NCBI GenBank assembly: GCA_012964825.1 | Contig: DTTI01000075.1 | Coordinates: forward strand, 14,488-67,533 | DNA from: Candidatus Neomarinimicrobiota bacterium | GTDB taxonomy: Bacteria; Fidelibacterota; Marinisomatia; Marinisomatales; S15-B10 | Direction of reading: 5' to 3' | DNA length: 53,046 nt | Shown here: positions 3,398 to 9,879 of the stretch, piece by piece | How positions within the stretch are numbered: the stretch's first letter is position 1 | Layout of the letters: every line of letters begins with the position of its first letter | The notes under the pieces: model-generated | Told to the model about the DNA's origin: nothing | Database searches by the model: none | What the model saw: the letters and a program-made list of their open reading frames with translations, nothing else | Translations under genes and position numbers: made by a program

Positions 3398-6300
3398 ATG
3401 AAAAGACTTATTTTAATTACACTGTCAATTTTTCTGGTGGCCGATTTTGCCTCAGCTCAGGTATTTGGGCAGAACAAGGTCCAATACAGGAAATTCGACT
3501 GGCAATTTATCCAGTCTCCCCATTTTGATATTTATTTTTACAATGGAGGTCAGCCTCTGGCTGAGTTTACAACGGAAGCAGTAGAAGAAGCTTACTCTCA
3601 GGTCTCCAGATATCTCGACTGGCAACTCCGGAAGCGCGTTTCCATCATCATCTACAATTCACATAATGATTTTCAACAGACCAATGTTACGATGGAATAC
3701 ATGCCTGAGGGTGTCGGCGGCGTGACGGAGCTTTTTAAGAACCGGATCGTGATCCCTTTCGAAGGTTCTTATGATCAGTTTCGTCATGTGATCCACCACG
3801 AACTTGTCCACGCCATGATCAATGATCTGGTGTACGGTGGTTCAGTGCAAAGTATTGTCTCCAACAGAGTACAGCTGGTGATTCCTCTTTGGATGAATGA
3901 AGGTCTTGCCGAATACCTTTCCAGTCAGTGGGATACTCAGGCGGATATGATAATGAGGGACGTGGCCGTACACGACAGGATTCCTGAGATTCAAGAACTG
4001 AACTATTATCTAGCCTATAAGGGTGGGCAGTCGGTCTGGAAGTTTGTTGTTGAGAAATACGGCTGGCAGAAAGTGGGTGAGATATTTGCCCAGTCCAAAC
4101 GGCGGCAGGATGTAGAGAGAGGATTCCAAAAGTCTATGGGACTGAGTTTTGAGGACCTTACGGACCAGTGGCACAAAAATCTGAAAAAAGAATACTGGCC
4201 TGACGTAGCCGGCAGAGACGAGCTTGAAGACTACGCCCAGCAAGTTACAGATCACAAAGAGATCAACAACTATTTCAACATTTCTCCAGCTCTTTCTCCC
4301 GATGGGAGCCGTATTGCAATTATCAGTGACCGAAGTGGTTATTCTGACGTTATGTTGATCTCTGCAAGTGATGGTGAATTGATCAAGAAACTTGTAAAAG
4401 GAAACCGGACGCCGGATTTTGAAGAGCTGAAGCTTTTACAGCCGGGGATATCCTGGGCTCCGGATGGGAAACATATTGTTCTCGCCGCAAAAGCGGGCGG
4501 CTCTGATGCGTTGTTTCTTATTGATGTGGATAGCGGGGAAAAAGAAAAAATCACCTTTGAACTTGACGGTCTTTTCACTGCCGCGTGGAGTCCTGACGGA
4601 AAAAAAATCGCCTTTGTTGGCAACAAGAACGATGCTAGTGACCTTTATATCTACGATTTAAAGAGCAAGGAACTGGAAAATCTGACCAATGATGTCTTTT
4701 CTGACTCAGAACCGACTTGGTCTCCCGATGGTCAGTACATTGCTTTCGTTTCGGACCGTGGTGAATTTCCCGAGGCTCCAGATGATTTCAATATGTTCCA
4801 GCACGGCTATGACCAGACTGATCTTTTTCTTATGGAGTTTGAGACGAGAAAAATTGAGCGGCTCACCGATACACCTTTCAGGGAGAACTTTCCTGTTTTC
4901 GCCCATACATCTAATGCTCTGGCTTACACATCAGACGCCAGCGGTGTATGGAACCTCTATATACTTGATCTGGATAAAGATGAATCTCGGTCCATCAGCA
5001 ATGTCCTTACCGGTATCTTCCAGCTCAGCTTGTCGAGAGATGATCAGATGCTGGTTTTCTCAGGCTATTCGGGGGTTGGTTGGGATATTTATTCTCTCAG
5101 CAATCCTCTTTCGCATGAAGAGATGGAGGTTAAACCTTCTAATTTCGTTCTGACGGGTACAGATGAGGATCCTCTTGATCTTGTAAAGGCCGAGAAAGAC
5201 ACAGTTGGGCAGAGGATTGAATTAGAATGGGCAGATAATGCTTTTGCCAGATGGATTTTTGCTCCAGAATATGCGCACTATAATGATGGGATTTTTGATT
5301 CGACCACTGTGGAGTCTATTGAACCACTTGCTGTATCGAGTTACAAGGATTCAGATGGTTCATACCTTGCCCAATCTTATAAAACACGCTTTACATTGGA
5401 TCTTGTTAGTGGTCAAGCCATGTACAGCAATCTCTGGGGTGCCATGGGGACAACCATTTTTGCGTTCAGTGATATCTTGGGAGATCACCGGATTTATGTC
5501 GGCACCGAAATGGTGATGAATCTTGAAAATAGTGATTATTTTGTTATGTACAGCTATTTGAAACCACGAAATGATCTGAACGTCGGCATATTCCACACAT
5601 CAAACATCTTTGGTTCTCAGTGGAACTTTCTGAGGCTAAGATATCTCAGCATGGATATGTCTGTTTCAAGACCTATCAGCAGATTCCAGCGTTTAAATTT
5701 TGGTCTGACGAATCATTTCGTTAACAGCAAGGAGTACGTTCTCGTGGCGTACAACCAGTACTCTCTCGCCGTCGATGAATCACTTCGTATTTTGTCATAT
5801 TCTCTGAGCTGGACTTATGACAACAGTCAGTGGGGTTTTACGTCCCCATCGGACGGCTGGAGAGCTAATGCACAGTTCTCACAGAGTCTCGATCTTTTTG
5901 GATATCCTCTCGATTTCAAGACAGTCCTCTTTGATGCTCGCCGTTATTTCAGAGTCGGTAGACTCTACAGTTTTGCTTTCCGAGCCATGGGTGGATTTAG
6001 TTTTGGCGCGAATCCACAAAGATTTTTCCTTGGTGGCACGCAGAACTGGCTATTCGGTTCTGGCTATACTGATGGTAAACGTGATCCTGCCCGGTGGAAC
6101 GATGATGAGGATGCTGACATTTGGGATAGTGAAGACAGTAACTACCTTAAGGATCTTTATTTCTCGATTTTTGTACTTCCCGTCCGGGGTGCCAGGCTGG
6201 TGGAGAAAAATGGAACAAAGGTTTTCCTGACAAATTATGAATTCAGATTTCCATTTGTGAATTATCTTGCACTCGGCTTTCCGCTAAAAGTCATCTTAGG

Positions 6301-6538
6301 TAACATTCAAGGTGTTCTCTTTATTGATGCCGGTGCGGCATGGGATGAGAATTTTCAATTCCGATCTACCGATTCAGTCACGGGTCTCACCGATTTTGAT
6401 GATTTTGTTGCTACTTACGGAGCGGGATTGAGGATTAACATTGGCTATACCATCATCCGGTTCGATGCAGCCAAGGACTATACCATGCACGGCAGTTCCA
6501 AGTGGCAGTATTACATTTCTCTGGGTACCGACTTCTAG
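3398..6538 (+). CDS. Secreted HExxH (gluzincin-like) / TolB-like propeller / outer-membrane barrel protein
   Basis: 1046 residues in three parts. A signal peptide ends near ASA-Q21. Residues about 30-270 resemble the peptidase MA-like domain: HELVH at 134-138 with a downstream WMNEGLAEY in which Glu168 is the expected third zinc ligand. Residues about 285-600 carry repeated 'SPDG..IAF.SDR.G..D.Y..D' blades, a TolB/WD40-like beta-propeller. The C-terminal 400 residues alternate aromatic and polar positions, include an FFLGGTQNWLFGSGY-type segment of the Omp85/BamA-like surface antigen family and end in Phe, as barrel substrates of the BAM complex do. Predicted to sit in the outer membrane with the protease-like and propeller domains in the periplasm or outside. 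It is monocistronic with its own promoter. A second protein of the same design lies at 29969. Peptidase activity is inferred. Confidence 0.85.
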   Translation: MKRLILITLSIFLVADFASAQVFGQNKVQYRKFDWQFIQSPHFDIYFYNGGQPLAEFTTEAVEEAYSQVSRYLDWQLRKRVSIIIYNSHNDFQQTNVTMEYMPEGVGGVTELFKNRIVIPFEGSYDQFRHVIHHELVHAMINDLVYGGSVQSIVSNRVQLVIPLWMNEGLAEYLSSQWDTQADMIMRDVAVHDRIPEIQELNYYLAYKGGQSVWKFVVEKYGWQKVGEIFAQSKRRQDVERGFQKSMGLSFEDLTDQWHKNLKKEYWPDVAGRDELEDYAQQVTDHKEINNYFNISPALSPDGSRIAIISDRSGYSDVMLISASDGELIKKLVKGNRTPDFEELKLLQPGISWAPDGKHIVLAAKAGGSDALFLIDVDSGEKEKITFELDGLFTAAWSPDGKKIAFVGNKNDASDLYIYDLKSKELENLTNDVFSDSEPTWSPDGQYIAFVSDRGEFPEAPDDFNMFQHGYDQTDLFLMEFETRKIERLTDTPFRENFPVFAHTSNALAYTSDASGVWNLYILDLDKDESRSISNVLTGIFQLSLSRDDQMLVFSGYSGVGWDIYSLSNPLSHEEMEVKPSNFVLTGTDEDPLDLVKAEKDTVGQRIELEWADNAFARWIFAPEYAHYNDGIFDSTTVESIEPLAVSSYKDSDGSYLAQSYKTRFTLDLVSGQAMYSNLWGAMGTTIFAFSDILGDHRIYVGTEMVMNLENSDYFVMYSYLKPRNDLNVGIFHTSNIFGSQWNFLRLRYLSMDMSVSRPISRFQRLNFGLTNHFVNSKEYVLVAYNQYSLAVDESLRILSYSLSWTYDNSQWGFTSPSDGWRANAQFSQSLDLFGYPLDFKTVLFDARRYFRVGRLYSFAFRAMGGFSFGANPQRFFLGGTQNWLFGSGYTDGKRDPARWNDDEDADIWDSEDSNYLKDLYFSIFVLPVRGARLVEKNGTKVFLTNYEFRFPFVNYLALGFPLKVILGNIQGVLFIDAGAAWDENFQFRSTDSVTGLTDFDDFVATYGAGLRINIGYTIIRFDAAKDYTMHGSSKWQYYISLGTDF

Positions 6539-6635: not shown

Positions 6636-7982
6636 ATGGCTAAGGCCTCACCCAAAACTGTCTTTCTCTGTTCTGAATGCGGCAACGATTTCCCCAAGTG
6701 GAACGGCAAGTGCCCTGCCTGTAATGAATGGGGCACGCTGAAAGAGTACACTCCGCCCGCTGGCGGCCGACGAGGACAAGGACGGGCGGATACTCCGCCT
6801 CTCACGTCTCTTGAAAACATCCTCGCCAATGGAAATTCGAAACGTGCCACCACAGGTATCAGTGAACTGGACCGTGTTTTAGGCGGCGGTTTCCTCAGAG
6901 GAGCCGTGGTACTGCTGGGTGGCAATCCAGGTATCGGTAAATCGACACTGGCTTTGCAGGCTGCGGTGGCGGTGAGAGGTTCAACGCTATATGTTTCAGC
7001 TGAAGAAAGTCAGGAACAGATTGGATTGAGAGCAAAAAGACTTGGCGCCTCGGGAGGAAAAGTCTCCATTACATCGGAAAATCGATGGGAAGGGATTGAG
7101 GAACAGATCAGTTTGTTGAAACCGGAATATTTTGTGATTGATTCCATTCAAACCATCTTTACAGAAAGGGGCGATGCACTTCCTGGTGCTATCAGTCAGG
7201 TGAGAGAATGCGGGCAGAAAATCCTTGATGTATGCAAGTCCCGAGGTACCACCGCAATCATTATCGGTCACGTCACCAAGGAAGGCGTTATTGCCGGACC
7301 GCGAATGCTGGAGCATATGGTGGATACAGTGCTTTACCTTGAAGGAGACACTCGTCACGACTATCGCCTACTCCGGGCGGTGAAGAATCGCTTCGGTTCC
7401 ACCAATGAAGTTGGTGTTTTTGAAATGACTGGTGAAGGGATGACGGAAGTGGAGAATCCGTCTGAAATGTTTTTGGCTGAGCGGCAATCTGATGCAGTCG
7501 GCTCGGCAGTTTTCCCCAGTATGGAAGGAACCAGAACAATCCTTGTGGAAGTTCAGGCATTGGTTTCCAATGCCAGCTTCGGAACGCCTCAGCGCAATGT
7601 TACCGGTTTCGATCTGAGACGTCTTTCAATGCTTCTAGCAGTACTGGAGAAACGGTTGGGTGTAATAGTTGGAACGAGCGATGTTTTTGTGAATGTGGTG
7701 GGTGGCATGCGAATAGATGAGCCGGCGGCGGACCTGGCAGTCATTTCCGCTGTGGCATCCAGCAAGAAAGATCAAGCAGTGCCAGGTGATACCGTCCTTA
7801 TGGGAGAAATAGGTCTTGCCGGAGAGTTGAGATCCATCGCTGGCATGGATAGCAGGCTGAAAGAAGCAAAGCGACTCGGTTTCAAACAGGCCGTCGTTCC
7901 TCACAAAGGGGCGAAGAAAGTGCAAGGGCTCCATCTGACGGCATGCCGAACCGTGTCAGAAGCCTTCAAAGCGATCTTCTAA
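6636..7982 (+). CDS. radA: DNA repair protein RadA
   Basis: 448 residues, the family length. An N-terminal C4 zinc finger (Cys12, 15, 26, 29) precedes a RecA-like ATPase with Walker A GGNPGIGKST at about 95-104, the RadA-specific KNRFG motif around residue 252, and a C-terminal Lon-protease-like domain (QALVSNASFGTPQR onward, VFVNVVGGMRI). RadA is a branch-migration helicase that processes recombination intermediates with RecA. GGAGGA at 6605-6610 is too far from the ATG to be its ribosome binding site. The Kunitz-lipoprotein gene and tgt follow directly on the same strand, so co-transcription is likely although functions are unrelated. Confidence 0.97.
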   Translation: MAKASPKTVFLCSECGNDFPKWNGKCPACNEWGTLKEYTPPAGGRRGQGRADTPPLTSLENILANGNSKRATTGISELDRVLGGGFLRGAVVLLGGNPGIGKSTLALQAAVAVRGSTLYVSAEESQEQIGLRAKRLGASGGKVSITSENRWEGIEEQISLLKPEYFVIDSIQTIFTERGDALPGAISQVRECGQKILDVCKSRGTTAIIIGHVTKEGVIAGPRMLEHMVDTVLYLEGDTRHDYRLLRAVKNRFGSTNEVGVFEMTGEGMTEVENPSEMFLAERQSDAVGSAVFPSMEGTRTILVEVQALVSNASFGTPQRNVTGFDLRRLSMLLAVLEKRLGVIVGTSDVFVNVVGGMRIDEPAADLAVISAVASSKKDQAVPGDTVLMGEIGLAGELRSIAGMDSRLKEAKRLGFKQAVVPHKGAKKVQGLHLTACRTVSEAFKAIF

Positions 7983-8027: not shown

Positions 8028-8285
8028 ATGAAATTTAGTTATAGTCGTTTGACAGCGGTTTTTCTGGCTTGCTTATTCTTTGGGTGCAATGAGCCGTGTT
8101 GGGAAGAGGATTCTGCCTGCAAGCTCGAGCCCGATCCGGGACCTTGTGAAGCGGCAATTATCATGTATTATTTTGACAAACGTTCCGGTGACTGCGAATT
8201 CTTCTATTGGGGTGGCTGTGATGGGGTTGCTCCATTTAACAGTTTGGATACATGTGAAGAGGCGTGTGTCTGCAACAGCGGGTGA
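8028..8285 (+). CDS. Small lipoprotein with a Kunitz (BPTI-type) domain
   Basis: 85 residues from ATG 8028 (an upstream in-frame TTG at 7983 would add 15 residues and spoil the signal peptide). A signal peptide ends in LFFGC, so Cys20 is probably lipidated. The mature part holds six cysteines at 31, 40, 56, 64, 76 and 80. Spacings 9-16-8-12-4 compare with 9-16-8-13-4 in bovine pancreatic trypsin inhibitor. The intervening residues also match: LEP, GPC, A-I-x-x-Y-x-F-D, GDC, F-x-Y-W-GGC, FNSLDTC. The residue after the second cysteine (the P1 position) is Glu41, so trypsin inhibition is not expected; a Glu-specific protease or a pure binding role is possible. Two extra cysteines flank the fold (24 and 82). 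It lies between radA and tgt. Function is inferred from the fold only. Confidence 0.85.
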   Translation: MKFSYSRLTAVFLACLFFGCNEPCWEEDSACKLEPDPGPCEAAIIMYYFDKRSGDCEFFYWGGCDGVAPFNSLDTCEEACVCNSG

Positions 8286-8288
8286 GGC

Positions 8289-9419
8289 ATGAGTTTTACA
8301 GTAGAATCAGAAGATACTGCTTCTTCAGCACGCGTTGGTTACCTAGTAACTTCCCGGGGCGATATACCAACGCCTGCTTTCATGCCTATCGGTACTTATG
8401 GTGCCGTTAAGACACTCTCACCAAGGAATCTGAAAGAGGTAGGTGCTGATATTATTCTGGGTAACACTTACCACCTTTATCTCCGACCGGGGATGGACAT
8501 TATCAAAGATGCGGGCGGGCTCCACAAGTTCATGGCGTGGGAGAGACCCATTCTTACCGACAGCGGTGGTTTCCAGATCTTCAGCCTGGCTGAGCTGAGG
8601 AAAATCAGCGACGACGGCGTCATATTCACGTCGACTCTTGACGGCAGTGGACATTTTTTGACGCCCGAACTTTCTATGGAGATTCAGCTGACGCTGGGTA
8701 GTGATATTATCATGGCATTTGATGAATGTCCGCCCGGCGGCTCAGATGACGCTACTCTAACTGGAGCCGTCAATAGAACAGAAAAGTGGGCTGACCGTTG
8801 CTATAAATTTCTGCAAGAAAATGAAGGATTTGGAGAGTCTGGCACTCATTTTTTCCCCATTGTTCAAGGCGGCGTGGACGAAGAGCTCAGAAAACAGAGT
8901 GCCGAGACCGTTCTTCCTTTCGCCCAAAGCGGAATTGCTATAGGCGGGTTGGCGGTAGGTGAAGAAAAAGAAGCAATGTTTGAAACGGTAGTGTTGATGA
9001 ACGATATTTTACCAAAAGATAAGCTGAGGTACCTCATGGGTGTGGGAAAGCCGGAAGATATTATCAATGCTGTGTTAAGAGGTATTGATCTGTTTGACTG
9101 TGTCATTCCAACCCGGAACGCAAGGAATGGCCAGTTTTTTACCTGGGACGGGAAACTCAATATCCACAACAGCCGATTCAAAGAAGACTTCTCTCCCATC
9201 AGTGAAAACTGCTCTTGTTATACTTGCGTCACATTCACCAGGGCTTATCTCCGGCATCTTTTTAAACTGAATGAGGTTCTTGTTCTTCACCTCGCTTCGC
9301 TCCATAATGTTACATTTTATCTCGAATTTATGAGCACGATCCGACAAGAGATTGAAGAAGGGACCTTTGACCGATGGGCAAAAGACACACTGTTAGCAGT
9401 CTCCTCCTCAAATGACTGA
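8289..9419 (+). CDS. tgt: Queuine/preQ1 tRNA-ribosyltransferase
   Basis: 376 residues, the usual size of bacterial TGT, which exchanges guanine-34 of GUN-anticodon tRNAs for preQ1. Visible signatures: GTYGAVKTLSP near the N-terminus, DSGGFQ (substrate-binding), the DECPPG segment, QGG, GGLAVGE, DCVIPTRNARNG carrying the nucleophilic aspartate, and the C-terminal zinc site CSCYTC followed by the His of LHLAS. The tRNA-Asn at 28582 has a GTT anticodon and would be a substrate. ATG 8289 lies three bases after the Kunitz gene, and the 3' end overlaps the NUDIX gene by 8 bases. Confidence 0.96.
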   Translation: MSFTVESEDTASSARVGYLVTSRGDIPTPAFMPIGTYGAVKTLSPRNLKEVGADIILGNTYHLYLRPGMDIIKDAGGLHKFMAWERPILTDSGGFQIFSLAELRKISDDGVIFTSTLDGSGHFLTPELSMEIQLTLGSDIIMAFDECPPGGSDDATLTGAVNRTEKWADRCYKFLQENEGFGESGTHFFPIVQGGVDEELRKQSAETVLPFAQSGIAIGGLAVGEEKEAMFETVVLMNDILPKDKLRYLMGVGKPEDIINAVLRGIDLFDCVIPTRNARNGQFFTWDGKLNIHNSRFKEDFSPISENCSCYTCVTFTRAYLRHLFKLNEVLVLHLASLHNVTFYLEFMSTIRQEIEEGTFDRWAKDTLLAVSSSND

Positions 9420-9879
9420 TATGGCAGTGACACATATTGACAGTTATCCTTATCGATTTGGTAAGGATGGCTGTCCTATCTTCCTGCTGTTAAGGCGACA
9501 GATGAAGAAACGTTACGGGCACCTTTGGCAAGGCGTTGCGGGAAAGATTGAAGAGGGAGAGACGGCGATGCAGACGCTCCTGAGAGAGATTGAGGAGGAG
9601 ACGGGACTTCGCCCAAAGCGTGTTTTTGTGGCCGATCATGTCACTTCTTTCTACCAGAGTTATAACGACAGAATAAACAGTGTCCCCGTTTTTGGTGTGG
9701 AAGTAGACTCAGCCGAAGTTCGCCTTTCTGAAGAACATGTGGATTATCAGTGGCTGCAATTCGAGAAGGCGGTGAAGATACTGACATGGAACGAGCAAAA
9801 AAAAGCGCTGTCAGTTATCAACGGCATGCTCATGTCTGACGACGGCCGGATCGATTGGTCCGAAGTCGAGATCGGTTAG
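9412..9879 (+). CDS. NUDIX hydrolase
   Basis: 155 residues with a complete Nudix box, G44-x5-E50-x7-R58-E59-x2-E62-E63-x-G65, which binds Mg2+ for cleavage of nucleoside diphosphate-X bonds. The neighbouring LWQGVAGKIEEGE resembles dihydroneopterin triphosphate diphosphatase (NudB) and other GTP-derived-substrate members, but the substrate cannot be set from sequence alone. It overlaps the end of tgt by 8 bases; an alternative ATG at 9421 would remove the overlap. Since Tgt uses a GTP-derived base, a folate/queuosine-related substrate is a reasonable guess, no more. Confidence 0.85.
   Translation: MTDMAVTHIDSYPYRFGKDGCPIFLLLRRQMKKRYGHLWQGVAGKIEEGETAMQTLLREIEEETGLRPKRVFVADHVTSFYQSYNDRINSVPVFGVEVDSAEVRLSEEHVDYQWLQFEKAVKILTWNEQKKALSVINGMLMSDDGRIDWSEVEIG

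Follow-up and report, generated by a model that had tools for sequence, protein, structure and literature searches.

The window, by which we mean the whole 53,046-nt stretch of DNA that was analysed, comes from Candidatus Neomarinimicrobiota bacterium (GCA_012964825.1, contig DTTI01000075.1, positions 14,488-67,533 of the forward strand). On its plus strand lies a small gene (8028..8285) that runs from the ATG at 8028 to the TGA at 8285 and encodes a protein of 85 aa plus stop, identified as an open reading frame with a match to the Kunitz profile PF00014. The protein consists of the signal part MKFSYSRLTAVFLACLFFG followed by the mature part CNEPCWEEDSACKLEPDPGPCEAAIIMYYFDKRSGDCEFFYWGGCDGVAPFNSLDTCEEACVCNSG. 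Its upstream neighbour is radA (sms; 6636..7982, plus strand; TIGR00416, 528 bits) and its downstream neighbour is tgt (8289..9419, plus strand; TIGR00430, 481 bits), the ATG of which follows the Kunitz stop codon after a gap of 3 nt. A NUDIX hydrolase gene (9412..9879, plus strand; PF00293) is next in the gene run. These neighbours are housekeeping genes, and no protease gene or other telltale partner was found beside the Kunitz gene. Just upstream of radA, window positions 3398-6538 encode a protein of 1046 aa that combines a Peptidase_MA_2 domain with TolB-like propeller repeats and a C-terminal barrel of the Omp85 type; it is conserved at L033 and L034.

The GC and GC3 of the Kunitz gene equal those of its neighbours. 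When the mature Kunitz part is compared with its 94% identical orthologue in G066 (L033), dN is 0.038 and dS is 0.37 (NG86); the same comparison for the flanking genes gives a dN of 0.045 and a dS of 0.20 for tgt, and 0.028 and 0.25 for radA. The Kunitz gene is under purifying selection comparable to that on the flanking genes.

An earlier note on this DNA had described a strong match to animal Kunitz domains with six cysteines spaced 9-16-8-12-4, and had proposed a profile search and a structure prediction as checks. The spacing is correct as described, and differs from the 9-16-8-13-4 spacing of BPTI in that the C38-C51 loop is short by one residue. The Kunitz core extends from Cys31 to Cys80 (8118..8267, plus strand; BPTI C5 to C55), as judged by profile, PDB sequence, and structure matches. 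In a Pfam profile search PF00014 scores 53.2 bits against a cut-off of 21 (E=3.5e-14), far above both the cut-off and chance, and a phmmer search against PDB chains returns SmCI at E=2.4e-21 together with many TFPI and BPTI chains and boophilin. The AF2 model, built from a 42-row alignment, is confident (mean pLDDT 85, approximately 90 over the core, and lower at both ends). A Foldseek search with this model yields 66 PDB matches at E<=0.001, and 50 out of 50 among the matches listed are Kunitz domains; a VIA structure comparison to boophilin gives a Z of 9.4 and an rmsd of 1.9 over 60 residues. The six framework cysteines (BPTI 5-14-30-38-51-55 pattern) are invariant across 42 aligned domains. 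Thus the Kunitz assignment is upheld: by sequence and by predicted fold, the window protein belongs to the Kunitz/BPTI family.

Residues 1-19 (8028..8084, plus strand) form a predicted lipoprotein signal peptide that agrees with a PROSITE PS51257-like lipobox rule. The lipobox, LFFG followed by C20, matches the strict form of this rule, with its Cys within residues 15-35 as is usual for a signal peptide plus lipobox, in keeping with the lipobox reported in the earlier note. Each of the 25 stand-alone members checked has a hydrophobic signal that ends in a Cys at the +1 position, Cys20 in the window protein (8085..8087, plus strand); 17 of the 25 match the strict rule. All 25 also have an odd number of cysteines (7 or 9) in the mature part, as would be expected from one lipid-bearing Cys plus pairs. 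In Bacteroidetes lipoproteins, K-(D/E)2 or Q-A-(D/E)2 just after the lipid-bearing Cys serves as a surface export signal, LES (PMC5080379). No such motif follows the lipid-bearing Cys of the window protein, whose mature N-terminus is CNEPCWEED. In three relatives (L008, L012, and L013), K-(D/E)2 stands directly behind that Cys.

The mature window protein has nine cysteines, namely the lipidated C20 and eight that are available for four pairs. Two of the eight, absent from the earlier note, lie outside the Kunitz framework: Cys24 (8097..8099, plus strand), which is conserved in G066, G063, and G064 (both tandem copies), and its candidate partner Cys82 (8271..8273, plus strand), part of a C-terminal C-x-C seen in the relatives' alignment. 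A fourth disulfide, C24-C82, is likely in the window protein and in the relatives closest to it, judging from cysteine parity, from the co-conservation of the two residues, and from the proximity of the chain ends in the Kunitz fold. Two Bacteroidota Kunitz lipoproteins (L058 and L059) carry the same type of extra pair, C-x3-C ... C-x-C, with the Cys24 equivalent at the matching place; their loop, YSGCSQ-x-GF, differs from that of the window protein, and their P1 is Gln.

The P1 residue of the window protein, at BPTI position 15, is Glu41 (8148..8150, plus strand; alignment A1), as the earlier note had it, and is followed by Ala42 at P1'. All of 29 GGC-type domains keep G12, C14, G36, G37, and C38, and have either Ala (28 domains) or Gly (one domain) at P1', whereas P1 and positions 11, 17, 34, and 39 are variable. 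A loop with a small P1' and these residues intact is, as read from the alignment, of the inhibition-competent type. P1 is Glu in 14 of the 29 domains, Lys in seven, Arg, Asp, and Leu in two each, and Gln and Asn in one each; two copies beyond this set have Met. All four window orthologues have Glu. Five genomes were found to have two stand-alone copies, and in every case the two differ at P1: Lys and Glu in the tandem pairs of G063, G064, and G092, and Arg and Met in G098 and G102, where the copies are on different contigs. These are not five independent events, G063 and G064 being related to each other, as are G098 and G102. The differing P1 residues in paired copies fit a diversification of target specificity. 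Taken together, the contact positions show no significant excess of variability over the remaining positions (Mann-Whitney p=0.23), and therefore provide no clear arms-race signature.

P1 Glu is unfavourable for most well-known S1 proteases, and the earlier note had concluded that it would favour a Glu-specific protease or no protease at all. Among the Foldseek matches are 1T7C, in which P1-Glu BPTI is bound to chymotrypsin, and 3BTE, which belongs to a series of complexes between trypsin and P1 variants of BPTI. Since these complexes are in the PDB, P1 Glu is compatible with a canonical complex, and ordinary serine proteases are not excluded as targets. Thus, that conclusion describes possible outcomes but is too narrow.

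An alternative is that the domain is a non-inhibitory binding module, a stable disulfide-rich scaffold for a surface ligand such as an envelope protein, a polysaccharide, or a partner cell. Animals offer models for this in the C5 domain of collagen VI and in the channel-blocking Kunitz peptides. The frequent acidic P1 (Glu in 14/29 and Asp in 2/29), which is poor for common S1 proteases, would suit a binding role, as would the occurrence of Kunitz domains, in other members of the phylum, at the C-terminus of large secreted proteins with dockerin-like repeats, an arrangement suited to attachment or an accessory function. However, strict retention of the features of an inhibitory loop (Ala or Gly at P1', G12, C14-C38, G36, and G37) is not what a binding module would lead one to expect, nor is the exchange of K, R, E, and M at P1 between paired copies. 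An unbroken canonical loop, together with P1 residues that differ from copy to copy, speaks for the inhibitor reading, and we regard a pure binding role as rather unlikely.

The dockerin-associated domains are of a GCC variant found in other Neomarinimicrobiota lineages (L020-L024, L027-L030, and L087), in which BPTI positions 18 and 37 carry additional cysteines and P1 is Asp or Glu. They are mostly C-terminal modules of secreted proteins of 300-1200 aa, and possibly represent another four-disulfide Kunitz type.

Kunitz domains are commonly treated as an animal hallmark, and the earlier note had called them rare in bacteria. This holds in general, as PF00014 matches were found in none of 14 control genomes and in 6 of 395 sampled Bacteroidota, but not for this phylum, where 32 of 245 Neomarinimicrobiota genomes have them. 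Within the host's family, a survey of the kind that the earlier note had proposed finds them in 5 of 10 genomes. No match to the Kunitz gene was found in the plasmids and phages searched. In a group that we name by its record title, Thaumarchaeota, 2 of 87 genomes have PF00014 above the cut-off (L039:4962-5669 and L089), one of the domains being in a lipoprotein-like protein.

The bacterial domains share a signature after the fourth framework cysteine. In the window protein this is D-G-V-A-P-F following Cys64 (8220..8237, plus strand; BPTI C38), one residue shorter than the animal loop. Nearly all of the bacterial domains have a C38-C51 segment that is one residue short, with G-V/T-V/A-P-F instead of the animal N-N-F; it is shorter still in some GCC-type domains, and the exceptions are L042 (Chitinophagales, with an animal-like NNY) and L058/L059, which have another loop. 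Position 35 is Trp in 26 of the 29 GGC-type domains. In a tree made without these exceptions, 42 bacterial domains are separated from seven animal domains with support of 98/95; with 53 columns only, the other deep forks of the tree are weak. By sequence, then, there is a conserved bacterial Kunitz clade with its own loop signature.

The position of the gene is also conserved. One Kunitz gene lies between radA and tgt in G000 and G066, and two lie there in tandem in G063 and G064, so that four genomes from two genera, each assembled separately, share this location and strand. Elsewhere in the family, where no Kunitz gene intervenes, radA and tgt are approximately 9 nt apart in G060 and G061 and approximately 50 nt apart in G067 and G068, and the 300-nt gap between them in G062 holds no Kunitz relic. 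G065, of the same genus and without the Kunitz gene, is uninformative because radA and tgt are missing from it too. The presence of this gene pair with and without the Kunitz gene across the family indicates that the latter either joined an old gene pair or disappeared from it. The Kunitz gene has been passed on vertically in two genera. In family f11, a Kunitz lipoprotein gene (L073, L075, L077, L080, and L083) occupies another fixed place, with a DUF2905-like gene of 73 aa on one side and a gene resembling that of homocysteine S-methyltransferase on the other (both identified by eye); no protease gene adjoins it there either.

A fold so typical of animals raises the question of recent acquisition from an animal or of assembly contamination. 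Against this stand the shared radA-tgt location in the four genomes, a GC and GC3 equal to those of the neighbours, the bacterial lipoprotein signal on the Kunitz protein, and the separation of the 42 bacterial domains, with their shorter loop, from the animal ones. We consider such an origin extremely improbable, and reject it on the four-genome synteny and the matching GC.

As candidate targets we considered trypsin-family proteases. The 2.2-Mb host genome has only two PF00089 matches, both HtrA-grade (best E 8e-19), and no strong trypsin partner. Matches of this strength occur likewise in almost all relatives, with or without a Kunitz gene. The three strongest trypsins of the phylum are in genomes of other lineages (G177, G178, and G181) that also carry GCC-type Kunitz domains. 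The proteins at L061, L062, and L063 are strong S1 trypsin matches, two of which have DSCQGDSGGP (trypsin-like Asp189) and dockerin-like tails.

The HtrA-type matches and the operon-like run with housekeeping genes could be taken to indicate that the protein keeps envelope proteases of the cell itself, of HtrA/DegP or subtilisin type, in check as a housekeeping inhibitor. Yet PF00089 is found in 236 of the 245 genomes of the phylum and Kunitz domains in just 32, and P1 differs within two-copy genomes; moreover, inhibition of an HtrA protease by a Kunitz domain is not known. We judge this role quite improbable. With only HtrA-grade matches in the host genome, an outside target is more likely for the Kunitz lipoproteins, and proteases secreted by other organisms appear to be the most likely targets.

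We therefore favour, with a probability of roughly 60%, the prediction that the window protein is an envelope-tethered, canonical (standard-mechanism) Kunitz inhibitor of foreign chymotrypsin-fold serine proteases. In the proposed mechanism, the protein would be exported, lipidated on Cys20, and anchored to one of the envelope membranes, probably the outer one. The loop of residues 13-19 in BPTI numbering, which is rigid and braced by the equivalent of the C14-C38 disulfide, would then enter the active site of a chymotrypsin-fold protease and act like a substrate that stays bound and is not released. Glu at P1 would tilt the window lineage toward glutamyl-specific or broad-specificity proteases, and relatives' copies with other P1 residues would cover other targets. 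The probable result would be a cell envelope shielded from outside serine proteases. A broader and more tentative idea, possible rather than probable, is that Neomarinimicrobiota display on their surface a set of lipid-anchored Kunitz inhibitors that differ at P1 (Glu, Lys, Arg, Met, and others; in some cases in paired copies) and together shield the cell from proteases of predatory or scavenging microbes. Such a set would be the bacterial equivalent of the animal Kunitz defence repertoire, and its acidic-P1 members would be directed at glutamyl endopeptidases.

As a vertically inherited group with a distinct loop, a lipid anchor, a probable extra disulfide, and natural P1-Glu members, the bacterial clade would provide a clean test of bacterial Kunitz function, and bears on the question of whether the Kunitz fold is older than animals or has moved between domains of life. 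The P1-Glu members may also offer a naturally occurring scaffold from which to build inhibitors of Glu-specific proteases, of which few natural protein examples are known. Our literature search found no paper that mentions Kunitz together with Marinimicrobia.

The window protein has in common with the Kunitz/BPTI family (PF00014; MEROPS I2: BPTI, TFPI, SmCI, and boophilin) the six-Cys framework and strand-strand-helix fold, the GPC-x-A loop, F33, GGC, and the C-terminal helix with C51/C55. It is set apart from BPTI-type domains by the shorter C38-C51 loop, with G-V/T-V/A-P-F replacing N-N-F, and by W35 in place of Y35; unlike the reference members, it has a lipid anchor, the extra pair C24/C82, and P1 Glu, and is very acidic (mature pI about 4.05). 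Protection of the envelope from outside proteases is proposed for ecotin, Brucella U-Omp19, and bacterial alpha-2-macroglobulin; these have different folds, and the analogy is one of role only. Kunitz domains have also been reported in F6W77_19310 of Acinetobacter baumannii, whose KABP1 is called the first bacterial Kunitz-domain peptide and is reported to inhibit coagulation factors (PMC11511053). Like the window protein, it represents Kunitz domains from a record labelled bacterial; unlike the window protein, it has five domains, is described as secreted, and has Arg at P1 in KABP1.
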